Shown here piece by piece: positions 1,475-63,894 of a stretch of DNA of 64,000 bases. The notes below the pieces were generated by a model. It worked only from the letters and a program-made list of their open reading frames with translations. It was not told where the DNA came from and made no database searches. Numbering within the stretch: position 1 is the stretch's first letter; each line of letters starts with the position of its first letter. This DNA comes from Lichenostomus cassidix (taxonomy: Eukaryota; Chordata; Aves; Passeriformes; Meliphagidae), in assembly GCA_008360975.2 (NCBI GenBank), contig VLJF02000033.1:3472001-3536000 (forward strand). Reading direction: 5' to 3'. A program made the position numbers and the translations under genes.

Positions 1475-1840
1475 AAAAAAGGCGTGAAGCGCAAAGCCGA
1501 CACCACCACTCCCACCACCACGGCCATCATCGCCACCAGCGGCGGCGAATCCTCCCCTCTGGAAAACCCCAAATCCTCCAAAATCCCAGCCAGGAGGGAG
1601 AGCGGCCGACCCATCAAACCCCCCAGGAAAGACCTCCCAGACTCCCAGCAGCACCAAACCTCCAAAAAGGGAAAACTTTCCGAGCAGCTGAAATATTGCA
1701 ACGGCATCTTGAAGGAGCTGTTGTCCAAAAAACACGCGGCGTACGCTTGGCCCTTCTACAAGCCGGTGGACGCGTCGGCTTTGGGGCTGCATGATTATCA
1801 TGAGATCATCAAGCATCCCATGGATCTCAGCACCATCAAG
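1475..1840 (+). CDS. BRD2 exon: linker and first half of bromodomain 2
   Basis: This exon has 122 codons in phase 0/0. The acceptor is a C-run ending CCCCCCAG and the donor is AAG|GTAGGG. It encodes [13 protein letters not shown], a Ser/Pro linker, [20 protein letters not shown], then [10 protein letters not shown] and helix Z of bromodomain 2, the WPF shelf ([12 protein letters not shown]) and the ZA loop down to [12 protein letters not shown]. Base composition is balanced, unlike the surrounding T/G-rich introns. It is the most 5' BRD2 exon in the window. Confidence 0.95.
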
Positions 1841-61900: not shown

Positions 61901-63894
61901 TTTCCCCACAATTCCCTAATTTCCCAAATTTCCCCAAATTGCAGGTTCTGTGTCTGATCACAGCTCCGGTGACGATGATCCTGAGCAGTCAGCAGGAAAT
62001 TAGGGAAAAAATCCGAAAAAATTAAAAAAAACCTGAAAAAATTTTTTAAAAATGTTAAATGGTAAATTTAAATGGAAAAAAAAATTTAAAAACTTGTAAA
62101 AAAAAAAAGTTTAAAATCACTAAAAAATTGGAAAAAATCAGAAAAAAATTTTGAAAATCAAAAATAAAAACAAAACAACAAAACCAAAAAAAAAAACCCA
62201 AAACCCCAAAAACACAAAAACAAAAAACACCCAAAACAAAAAACAAAAACCAAAAAAAAAAATGTAAAAAATCGAAAATTCCCAAAACCCAAAAACAAAA
62301 ACCCAAAACCCAAAACAACCAAACCAAACCCACCACACACCCCACAACCCACACCCCAAAAATTAGGAAAAAATTTTAAAAATCAAAAATCTGAAAAAGA
62401 TTTTAATAATTGTAAAAAAAAGTGTAAAAATCCCCAAAATCAGATTAAAAAATCTTTAAAAATTTAAAAAAAATTCGTAAAAATAAAAAAATCAAAAAAT
62501 GGAAAAAATTCAAAAAAATTTGTAAAAATTCATTAAAAATTCAAAAAAATCACAAAAACGCAAAAATCGTTAAAAATCATAAAAATTCGGAAAAATTCCC
62601 CAAAATTCCCAAAACCCAAAAAACAAAACCAACCCAACAACCCACCACACACCCATGATGACCCAGCAGTCAGCAGGAAATTAGAAAAATCCGAAAAATC
62701 CAAAAAATCTGAAAAAATTTTAATAAAAAAAATTATTAAAATTGTAAAAACAAAAATTGTAAAAATCCTAAAAAATCAGAAAAAATCTTTAAAATCTTTA
62801 AAAATCAGTAAAAAAATCATTAAAAAATCACCAAAAATTGAAAAAATCGAAAAAAAATCAGAAAAAATCGCAAAAAATTGTAAAAATTCCCAAAAATTCC
62901 CCAAAAATCCCAAAAAATCCCAAAAACCCCATTGAAAATCACACCAAAAATTAATTAAAAATCACCCAAAAAATCGAAAAACCAGAAAAAAATCATAAAA
63001 AATACAAAAAAAATAATTAAAAATTCAAAAAAAATTGTTAAAAATCGTAAAAATCGTAAAAATCCCAAAAATCCCCAAAAAATCCCAAAATTCCAAAATT
63101 TTTCTAATTTCCCAAATTTCCCAAAATCGCAGGTTCTGTGTCTGATCACAGCTCCGGTGACGATGATCCTCAGCAGCCCCAGAAATTAGGAAAAATATTT
63201 TAAAAAATCAAAAAATCTGAAAAAGATTTTAATAATTGTAAAAAAAGTGTAAAATCCCCAAAAAATCAGATTTTAAAAATCTTTAAAATTTAAAAAAATT
63301 CGTAAAAATAAAAAAAATCAGAAAAAATCATAAATAATTCCAAAAAATATCATTAAAAAATCGTAAAAAAATCGTAAAAAATTCAAAAAAATCGTAAAAA
63401 ATCCCCCAAAAAATCAGAAAAAATCAGAAAAATTCCCTAAAATTCCCCACAATTCCCTAATTTCCCAAATTTTCCCGAATTCCAGGTTCTGTGTCTGATC
63501 ACAGCCCCGGTGACGATGATCCTCAGCAGTTCTGAAAATGAGATAAATATATGAAAAAAATAAAAAAATCTGAAAAATTTGAAAAAAAATTGTAAAAAAA
63601 ATTGAAAAATCGCAAAAACATTTTAAAATTGTAAAAATCCCCAAAATCAGATTAAAATCTTAAAAAAAAAAAATTCGAAAAAAATAAAAAAATCAAAAAA
63701 AATCATAAAATTCCAAAAATCGTAAAAATTGCAAAAAAATTCAAAAAATCGTAAAAATCCCCAAAAAAATCAGAAAAAATCAGAAAAATTCCCAAAAATT
63801 CCCAAAATTTCCTAATTTCCCAAATTTTCCCGAATTGCAGGTTCTGTGTCTGATCACAGCCCCGGTGACAATGATCCTCAGCAGTCAGCAGGAA
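43777..63894 (+). CDS. GABBR1, transmembrane core of GABA-B receptor subunit 1 (gene-level entry, partial at both ends)
   Basis: GABBR1 is the GABA-binding subunit of the heterodimeric GABA-B receptor, a class C GPCR in the plasma membrane. Exons 43777-43909, 45693-45809, 47597-47704, 50554-50647 and 57473-57598, plus the start of the next exon (several copies from 60480), encode TM2 to TM6 in order: [118 protein letters not shown] and [17 protein letters not shown]. The Cys pair of FPFVCQ and LEHCSS forms the conserved TM3-loop 2 disulfide. Missing are the extracellular domain, TM1, TM7 and the coiled-coil tail. Intron phases are consistent, but the 57473 exon is 2 nt short of the expected 128. 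Confidence 0.95.
43910..45692 (+). repeat. GABBR1 intron of CATTTTTCTGT repeat with two copies of the TM3 exon 5' edge
   Basis: T-rich repeat of TTTTTCTGTCA and TTTTTCCATCA words, with tandem CCCATGTTTTT blocks before each acceptor. Copies of the acceptor and the first 42 nt ([14 protein letters not shown]) lie at 44705-44746 and 45139-45180. Each then runs into TCATCCTTTTTCC-like or TCACCCTTTTTCT repeat and has no donor. The real exon follows at 45693. Confidence 0.88.
45693..45809 (+). CDS. GABBR1 exon: TM3 and second intracellular loop
   Basis: 39 codons, phase 0/0, acceptor ATGTTCCAG, donor AAG|GTGAGA. It encodes [31 protein letters not shown] and a basic/acidic DDKKDKRK loop. The loop is more charged than the mammalian EEKKEWRK version I know. 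Confidence 0.95.
45810..47596 (+). repeat. GABBR1 intron with four copies of the TM4 exon acceptor
   Basis: The first part is GGGATTTTTGGGGG repeat (to about 46700). Then come units of about 202-210 bp, each with CTCACCTAATTGGG, TTTTTGGGAATTTCAG and 14 nt of the exon start (AGCCTGGAGCCCTG) diverging to CTGGGATTTTCC. Decoy exon starts are at 46778, 46988, 47192 and 47395; the real one is at 47597. None has a donor. Confidence 0.9.
47597..47704 (+). CDS. GABBR1 exon: TM4
   Basis: 36 codons, phase 0/0, acceptor GAATTTCAG, donor GAG|GTTTGG. It encodes [20 protein letters not shown] and [16 protein letters not shown], the fourth transmembrane helix and start of extracellular loop 2. It is the only copy that has both the LEPWKLY start and the HRTIE end. 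Confidence 0.95.
47705..50553 (+). repeat. GABBR1 intron with opposite-polarity halves and one partial TM4 exon copy
   Basis: From 47705 to about 49105 the intron is TTTTATGTCAATTTTTTGGGG and GGGGATTTTGGG repeat. From about 49106 to 50550 it is AAAAATCCCCAAAAAA repeat, close to the reverse complement. A 62-nt copy of the TM4 exon's 3' edge ([20 protein letters not shown], donor CAG|GTTTGA) lies at 48851-48912, with Gln in place of the final Glu. Confidence 0.85.
50554..50647 (+). CDS. GABBR1 exon: extracellular loop 2
   Basis: 94 nt, phase 0 in and 1 out, acceptor TTTTCCCCAG, donor CTGG|GTGAGC. It encodes [18 protein letters not shown] and [14 protein letters not shown]. The Cys of EHCSS is the loop-2 partner of the TM3 disulfide. 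Downstream copies repeat only its last 35-36 nt. Confidence 0.95.
50648..57472 (+). repeat. GABBR1 intron with twelve two-sided microexon copies of loop 2, plus acceptor-only fragments
   Basis: TTTGGGGGATTTTGGGG repeat. Six 36-nt copies (50994, 52406, 53083, 54694, 55028, 55853) and six 35-nt copies (51274, 51616, 51951, 53417, 53801, 54342) of the exon end have both an upstream TTTCAG and a downstream GTGAGG donor (GTGAGC in the real exon). Between them lie fragments reading TTTCAGCTCCACT without a donor. A higher-order copy of about 1.46 kb links 51616-51985 to 53083-53451, including the unique words AAATCCGCCAAATCGGCTTG. From 56530 the repeat becomes TTTTCCCCATTTTT, with two short copies of the next exon's start at about 56813 and 56929. 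Confidence 0.88.
55633..55702. other. A/C-only tract, probable consensus error
   Basis: Seventy bases containing only A and C interrupt an otherwise G-rich repeat. The sequence on both sides (about 55545-55760) resembles neighbouring units (for example 54880-54930) with many G and T bases dropped. This looks like failed consensus rather than biology. Confidence 0.6.
57473..57598 (+). CDS. GABBR1 exon: TM5 and third intracellular loop, two bases short
   Basis: 126 nt after CATTTTCCAG, donor GCG|GTAAAA. It encodes the end of TM5 ([11 protein letters not shown]) and [19 protein letters not shown], the loop that contacts the G protein, but in shifting frames. One T is missing in the T-run near 57478 and one G near 57510, both homopolymers. 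The family needs 128 nt here. Copies downstream have intact AYNV ends but further indels, so sequencing error is likelier than a true lesion. Confidence 0.85.
57599..60479 (+). repeat. GABBR1 intron with three copies of the TM5 exon 3' edge and donor
   Basis: A-rich repeat (GGGAAAAAATTGGGGTGAAA) with copies of [20 protein letters not shown] sequence plus donor GTAAAA ending at 58434, 59014 and 60221. The second extends further (from about 58950, with AAAAGTATTTCGATGG) and has one-base deletions; the third has an Ala-to-Val change and a one-base loss. The end of the segment is AAAAATCCC repeat before the next exon start. Confidence 0.85.
60480..63894 (+). repeat. GABBR1 TM6 exon 5' edge in seven good and about two degraded copies; real exon not identified
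   Basis: Copies of the acceptor plus [21 protein letters not shown] coding sequence start at 60480, 60957 (several one-base losses), 61411, 61945, 63133, 63486 and 63841. Degraded remnants lie in the A/C-only tracts near 62300-62362 and 62608-62685. All break off at CAGCAG or after QQ and continue GGAAATTAGGAAAAA, with no GT donor, so all look like decoy 5' edges and the complete exon must lie beyond the right edge. The spacer is AAAAATCCCAAAA repeat. Confidence 0.85.
62166..62262. other. A/C-only tract, probable consensus error
   Basis: Ninety-seven bases with no G or T. It is followed by a second A/C-only tract at 62281-62362 and a third at 62608-62654, each sitting where the repeat period would place another TM6 exon copy. 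The likely cause is loss of G and T in a poorly supported assembly consensus. Confidence 0.55.

Follow-up and report, generated by a model that had tools for sequence, protein, structure and literature searches.

Exons of BRD2 and GABBR1 in the window

The DNA analysed here (the window) is a stretch of 64,000 nucleotides from the passerine bird Lichenostomus cassidix (assembly GCA_008360975.2, contig VLJF02000033.1, positions 3,472,001 to 3,536,000 of the forward strand); positions below are counted from its first base. It carries parts of two genes, BRD2 and GABBR1, whose introns hold truncated copies of exon edges together with their splice sites. Twelve exons were placed by hand from splice sites and reading frame, and these exons and all copies described below lie on the + strand.

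The last seven exons of BRD2 occupy 1475-27917, the window opening inside the gene. They are B1 (1475-1840), B2 (5575-5703), B3 (9103-9351), B4 (10670-10896), B5 (12997-13307), B6 (17602-17724), and the last exon, B7, with the stop codon (27787-27917). The frame is unbroken across all seven. The joined exon reading contains the Pfam domains Bromodomain (at B1) and BET (at B5), and Protein Data Bank (PDB) sequences of BRD2/BRD4 match it. Five exons of GABBR1 span 43777-57598, namely G1 (43777-43909), G2 (45693-45809), G3 (47597-47704), G4 (50554-50647), and G5 (57473-57598). The gene was identified by the Pfam domain 7tm_3 and by PDB sequence matches to GABA-B receptor subunit 1, which cover G1, G2, and G4. 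The guanine-cytosine (GC) content is 0.26-0.39 in the introns, whereas it is 0.55 and 0.53 in the exons, with 0.68 and 0.71 at third positions. Tandem repeats cover 0.67-0.99 of the sequence across 13 intervals, and G-quadruplex-like runs are more frequent than in shuffled sequence in 11 of the 13, against a weak control of five mononucleotide shuffles each.

Screens for copies of exon edges

The exons were compared by blastn-short with the exon-masked window at a cut-off of 42.1 bits, the threshold of a published chicken screen (PMC12954441). This gave 47 partial exon copies of 21-168 base pairs (bp; median, 42 bp), with 1-15 copies per exon edge. All 47 are direct and lie in the intron adjoining the source exon, 5'-edge copies upstream and 3'-edge copies downstream, as predicted. 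Every copy ends at most 4 bases from the exon edge, and 42 end exactly at it. The splice dinucleotide, AG or GT, is intact in 46 of the 47, the sole exception being a copy of B6 at 18006. Nearly all copies also carry intron sequence resembling that of the source on the splice side. In 20 first-order Markov re-samplings, no match exceeded the threshold (top score, 32.2 bits). Between 38 and 42.1 bits there are six further rows, every one of them to a single GGA run at 39946. The dozens of splice-site-bearing copies reported for both genes in a preliminary description of this DNA, and the side rule given there, are thus borne out.

A second screen, a full edit-distance scan that tolerated as many as 8 edits per 26 bases, covered both sides of every exon. 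On the wrong side it revealed nothing convincing; matches there were limited to three at 8 edits for the 3' edge of B5, against one in the reversed control. The copies below the BLAST threshold all lie on the predicted side, although those of the B1 5' edge and of a sixth GABBR1 exon, G6, were compared on that side only. Single or few matches at noise level were left uncounted, namely those at 8 edits for G1 3' (one) and G4 5' (three), with none in the reversed control, and those at 8 edits for B5 5' and G5 5', which do not exceed the control.

With the sub-threshold copies included, 14 of 24 exon edges have copies and 10 have no counted copy. The copies had been described as occurring throughout the two genes; this holds for the presence of copies in both, but not for every edge. 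The BRD2 introns at 9352-10669 and 10897-12996 contain no counted copy despite tandem-repeat covers of 0.97 and 0.96, and no edge copies of B3 or B4 were found. Richness in minisatellites is therefore insufficient for the process, contrary to the earlier proposal that it is tied to such introns. Repeats of at least 150 bp and at least 90% identity form 11 pairs, of which nine lie within one intron, two lie outside introns, and none joins two introns.

Positions of the copies in BRD2

Exon B1 has one degenerate 5'-edge copy upstream of it (889-937), in which the 60-base acceptor flank aligns closely and the exon part has large deletions. Its 3' edge has a 105-bp BLAST copy with an intact donor (2326-2430), and the edit-distance scan adds three degenerate copies ending at 2038, 2236, and 2628, with 3-4 edits in 26 bases. 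Three 5'-edge copies of B2, each of 69 bp, start at 3676, 4206, and 4895 (3676-4963) and all end at exon base 69. The four 3'-edge copies of this exon, at 6183, 6701, 7240, and 8168 (6183-8221), all start at exon base 76. The breaks of the 5' and the 3' copies thus fall within 7 bases of each other, at 5643-5650, and this zone adjoins a minisatellite-like run in the exon.

The 3' edge of B5 has three copies of 168 bp (13931, 14989, and 15896; 13931-16063), all of which start at exon base 144. A repeat of about 650 bp, 13136-13781 versus 15892-16542, spans part of exon B5 and the following intron; at 96.5% identity it ranks highest among the 11 long pairs listed. Exon B6 has only a weak 3'-edge BLAST copy without GT (18006-18026); a further candidate from the edit-distance scan, with 6 edits versus 7 in the control, is doubtful. 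The largest family consists of 15 copies of the 5' edge of B7 (18534-27027), each with the acceptor AG intact. Five are long forms and ten are short forms, which differ by a 17-bp internal deletion.

Positions of the copies in GABBR1

Two 5'-edge copies of G1 (42084 and 42947; 42084-43023) end at exon bases 79 and 78, and two of G2 (44705 and 45139; 44705-45180) both end at exon base 42. Exon G3 has four 5'-edge copies (46778, 46988, 47192, and 47395; 46778-47408), which lie below the BLAST limit and consist of 14 exon bases and the acceptor with a single common junction, and one 3'-edge BLAST copy (48859-48909). The 3' edge of G4 has 12 copies with the donor GT intact (50993-55888). They start at exon base 58 (six copies), 64 (one), or 66 (five). 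Within 50828-56233 they alternate with a diverged segment, termed type B, which has AGCTCCAC in common with them. The type B segments are possibly older, decayed G4 copies. Three 3'-edge copies of G5 (58386, 58950, and 60184; 58386-60229) start at exon bases 78, 60, and 78. Finally, seven readable and two badly damaged 5'-edge copies lie at 60480-63890, below the BLAST limit; their source exon, G6, is beyond the window.

Break points of the copies

The positions at which the copies break off within the exon should be noted, since they are related to how the families were founded. Among the eight multi-copy BLAST families, six (B2 5', B2 3', B5, B7, G1, and G2) have a common break to within a base. 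The junction is identical in all 15 copies of B7 and in all four 5' copies of G3. Because breaks at the same base are rarely expected from independent duplications, we conclude that mostly one founder per edge was amplified, rather than that the boundary was duplicated repeatedly. The preliminary description had proposed repeated local tandem duplication across the exon-intron boundary. Duplication across the border does explain the orientation, side, and break-off of the copies, but the common breaks in six of the eight families speak against its being repeated.

Microhomology was analysed at 11 founding junctions, four of which, including G3 5' with no comparable intron sequence, are untestable. 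It reaches P < 0.05 at two junctions, B2 5' and G5 3', with 6 bases each; the B7 5' junction has 4 bases (P 0.051).

Synonymous differences between exons and copies

If the copies are fossils of the exon, the differences shared by all copies of an edge should be synonymous, while those of single copies should not; this provides a test of their reality that does not depend on reads. In the B2 and B5 families, there are seven positions at which the exon disagrees with all copies of an edge, and each of these differences is synonymous (P 1.6e-5 under equal rates to 2.5e-4 under strong transition bias). Exon B1, with one copy and therefore outside this count, shows two differences, both synonymous. 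In contrast, the nine single-copy differences in the B2 and B5 families comprise six nonsynonymous and three synonymous ones. This count leaves out the third G5 copy, whose frame is unsure, and the B7 and G4 variants, which are found in two copies each. Adding the B7 and G4 variants changes the ratio to 6 to 5 and the Fisher P from 0.011 to 0.038. The G5 copies at 58950 and 60184 were dropped from the difference count owing to indels, and the test requires more differences than the remaining families offer.

The simplest reading would be that the exon changed at silent sites after duplication while the copies drifted freely. We infer, from a comparison made without an outgroup, that the shared differences arose on the lineage of the exon. 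The copies thus appear to be genuine duplications that have aged, rather than the product of assembly error alone.

Exon-derived pieces in the surrounding array

In each of the eight families measured, the copies resemble one another more closely in the exon-derived piece than in either flank. In B7, the divergence is 0.000 in the exon piece versus 0.13-0.21 in the flanks, and in G4 it is 0.000 versus 0.16-0.21; one of the two flanks differs little from the exon piece in G2 (0.000 versus 0.051), B2 5' (0.029 versus 0.079), and B5 (0.008 versus 0.056). These flank values are inflated by misaligned minisatellite monomers or slippage. A gradual loss of identity with distance from the exon piece was considered and is not general across the families. 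In several of them, identity falls on either side within some 10 bases. One flank, on the break side in B5 and on the splice side in G2, is about as alike as the exon part for at least 40 bases, and identity is low on parts of both flanks in B2 5'.

The difference was re-measured with 24-mers of the intron, restricted to those unmatched in its reversed sequence (the mask for G3 being 2 bases off), and with complex segments. All 15 copies of B7 and all 12 of G4 match the exon exactly over 26 bases, nothing being found between 1 and 7 edits, and no column varies over 27-28 exon bases. Contrarily, in the G4 array, 10 of 25 columns vary in the type B segment (eight copies), compared with 0 of 28 in the 12 exon copies (Fisher P 1.7e-4). 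The query for type B was taken from the intron 24-mer results, and matches with up to 7 edits were accepted; if the type B segments, or three matches with 8 edits, are decayed copies, the invariance of the copies may be partly definitional. In the B7 array, a complex segment upstream of the acceptor varies at 16 of 32 columns in 11 copies, or at 10 of 32 without the outlier copy at 25504, whereas the same copies vary at 0 of 25 exon columns.

Other observations run counter to an effect confined to exon sequence. The best intron segment of the G3 array is conserved as well, with 1.25 edits per 24 bases (four matches) against a mean of 3.49 for 25 segments, and in the 5' copy of B1 the flank is intact while exon bases are lost. 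Outside the 25-28 invariant bases, the exon parts of B7 and G4 vary by the 17-bp deletion, one C/G and one C/T site, and their start points. In the B7 array, where the two lie within some 60 bases, flank type and exon form are combined in all four ways. This mixing points to an exchange of short tracts; the exon form, however, is a deletion between short repeats and might have arisen more than once.

It is a tentative idea that the exon edges act as short mobile cassettes, at a guess some 50-80 bp long. Short-tract conversion or template switching would copy them from one unit to another, and selection on their splice sites would perhaps maintain them, so that they stay identical while the unit around them turns over. 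In line with such cassettes, invariance in the G4 array is confined to the exon-derived segments, although diverged ones are interleaved with them. Selection or homogenising read polishing is also possible as a source of the identity. The choice between conversion, selection, and sequence artefact is directly testable.

Purifying selection might further be thought to keep the copies themselves, for example as decoy splice sites or cassette exons. We consider this improbable. The invariance of 27-28 exon bases in the 15 B7 and 12 G4 copies, next to variable complex neighbours, and the intact splice dinucleotides in 46 of 47 copies would agree with it. However, six of the nine single-copy changes in B2 and B5 are nonsynonymous, as expected without coding constraint, and 10 of the 24 edges lack counted copies altogether. 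The B1 5' copy has retained its flank and lost exon bases, the B7 and G4 exon parts vary beyond the 27-28 bases, and the best G3-array intron segment is conserved too. Selection on dozens of redundant decoys is in itself unlikely.

Sequence quality and the scaffold join

The array copies at 62141-62380 and 62595-62695 lack nearly all T and G. In one alignment the deletions comprise 27 T and 13 G versus 2 C and 1 A, and in another, 24 T and 10 G; a third stretch, 60925-61025, has lost 15 T, 4 A, and 3 C. The T- and G-stripped copies look like a base-specific sequencing or consensus fault. Within its 126 bases, exon G5 has two frame shifts of one base each, both at homopolymer runs; these are likely consensus errors. 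Near 62.3 and 62.6 kb and in G5, neither the individual bases nor the number of copies should be relied on. Dropout of high-fidelity (HiFi) reads on bird dot chromosomes is mentioned in a preprint on vertebrate genomes (PMC13320880).

A scaffold gap of 500 N (40619-41118, without strand) lies just before the GABBR1 exons, and the adjacency of BRD2 and GABBR1 is a scaffold join across it. The match of exon G1 to the GABA-B receptor subunit begins at residue 458 of the solved chain, and no exon for the N-terminal part of GABBR1 turned up in the window, although no search was aimed at that part. The missing exons are probably hidden by the gap or the join, which may be wrong or undersized.

These faults lend some weight to an assembly artefact, in which false duplication or misjoined repeat reads would have made the copies: the 500-N gap, the stripped copies near 62.3 and 62.6 kb with the losses at 60925-61025, and the frame shifts in G5 all point that way. 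Yet the shared differences in B2 and B5 are synonymous in seven of seven cases, with two of two added by B1, which is unexpected from random error or a false duplicate. A pure artefact is unlikely because these differences are all synonymous. The copies moreover differ from each other and lie in different flanks, and base errors do not create partial copies anchored at splice sites. We therefore regard an artefact as improbable, marginally more so than selection. The preliminary description had called for its exclusion; the synonymous differences go far in that direction, but errors at the base level are present.

C2H2 zinc-finger reading frames lie on both strands between BRD2 and GABBR1. An inverted repeat of about 406 bp (32813-33218 versus 39042-39433, 91.6% identical) lies close to where two zinc-finger genes of opposite orientation begin. 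At the two edges tested of one zinc-finger gene, no close local copy was found; there were a 3-edit match in an opposite-strand paralogue and, in a comparison without control, weak 7-8-edit matches in GC-rich sequence. The earlier statement that zinc-finger genes separate BRD2 and GABBR1 depends on the scaffold join.

Origin of the copies

We interpret the copies as avian exon stuttering in BRD2 and GABBR1, produced by duplication of the exon-intron boundary and then by amplification in a minisatellite array, and assign this reading a probability of roughly 0.85. The term was introduced by Hron et al. 2026 for chicken dot chromosomes (PMC12954441), so a name for the system, which had been thought lacking, was already in print.

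A tandem duplication that spans the border, ending in the intron on one side and in the exon on the other, would produce a chimeric unit of splice site, exon edge, and minisatellite. The intact exon would go on coding, with the truncated copy on its intron side. Because the truncated copy must stay on that side of the intact exon, 5'-edge copies lie upstream and 3'-edge copies downstream. The strict side rule follows from tandem geometry and no special system is needed; any tandem duplication across the border gives it, so the rule is no additional evidence of a special process. The chimeric unit would then be multiplied inside the unstable minisatellite array, presumably by replication slippage, unequal exchange, or short-tract gene conversion, and short stretches might be exchanged between copies. 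The copies are most likely by-products that carry decoy splice sites, not functional parts.

Several observations weigh against this interpretation. The divergence of the exon parts, much lower than that of at least one flank in all eight families, is not predicted by plain duplication of whole units. The break points vary in G4 (bases 58, 64, and 66) and G5, and the G6 copies differ at their end point, reflecting later change or further duplication events as well. Microhomology does not appear to be general at the founding breaks. Stuttering is linked to GC-rich sequence in PMC12954441, whereas the introns here are AT-rich and the exons of moderate GC. Location on dot chromosomes and length variation between individuals are features of the chicken cases, while a single assembly sequence represents the locus here. 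Retroposition or transposition of exon pieces instead of local duplication is highly improbable, no evidence in its favour having been found, and nearly all copies have source-like intron sequence on the splice side and 47 of 47 are direct and beside the source exon.

Comparison with known systems

In intron gain by tandem duplication, the duplicated splice-site sequence makes a new intron. The copies in BRD2 and GABBR1 resemble this in that the tandem duplication includes splice-site sequence. Contrarily, existing introns are filled here, the copies lying inside introns bounded by exons, and none has arisen anew within a former exon. Such intron gain has been reported, for example in PMC4974935. 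In quail, the Tapasin-BRD2 segment contains tandem repeats that are candidates for rearrangement and differ in length between haplotypes (PMC1769493). The two loci are alike in having tandem repeats near an avian BRD2, but the quail repeats are simple and intergenic, and the part of that report compared describes no exon-edge copies.

Exon stuttering is the closest system. In chicken, 1,345 copies were found in 236 introns, 190 of these introns on dot chromosomes, with length varying between individuals; the copied exon length is 20-187 bp with 1-44 copies, expansions in other birds are mentioned without detail, and a link to GC-rich sequence is proposed (PMC12954441). As in chicken, each copy here is direct and repeats only a lateral portion of an exon along with the donor or acceptor there, and the copies are clustered in tandem in the adjacent intron. 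The introns are likewise covered by tandem repeats, the exons are intact, and the copies pass the same BLASTn threshold. The lengths of 21-168 bp and the 1-15 copies per edge fit the published ranges. The GC-rich coding context, which is absent here, is an association proposed for stuttering and not its definition (PMC12954441). The main text of that paper does not name BRD2 or GABBR1, and no paper among the literature matches listed describes exon-edge copies in either gene. The sharing of break points, the synonymous test, and the conservation of exon pieces against their flanks are analysed here and are absent from the parts of PMC12954441 compared.

The BRD2 and GABBR1 locus is another case of known exon stuttering that adds a few new constraints on its mechanism. 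Stuttering has barely been described and has no established mechanism. The locus extends it beyond GC-rich introns and favours a single founder at each exon edge for most families, and its dozens of intact decoy splice sites raise the question of how splicing picks the real one.

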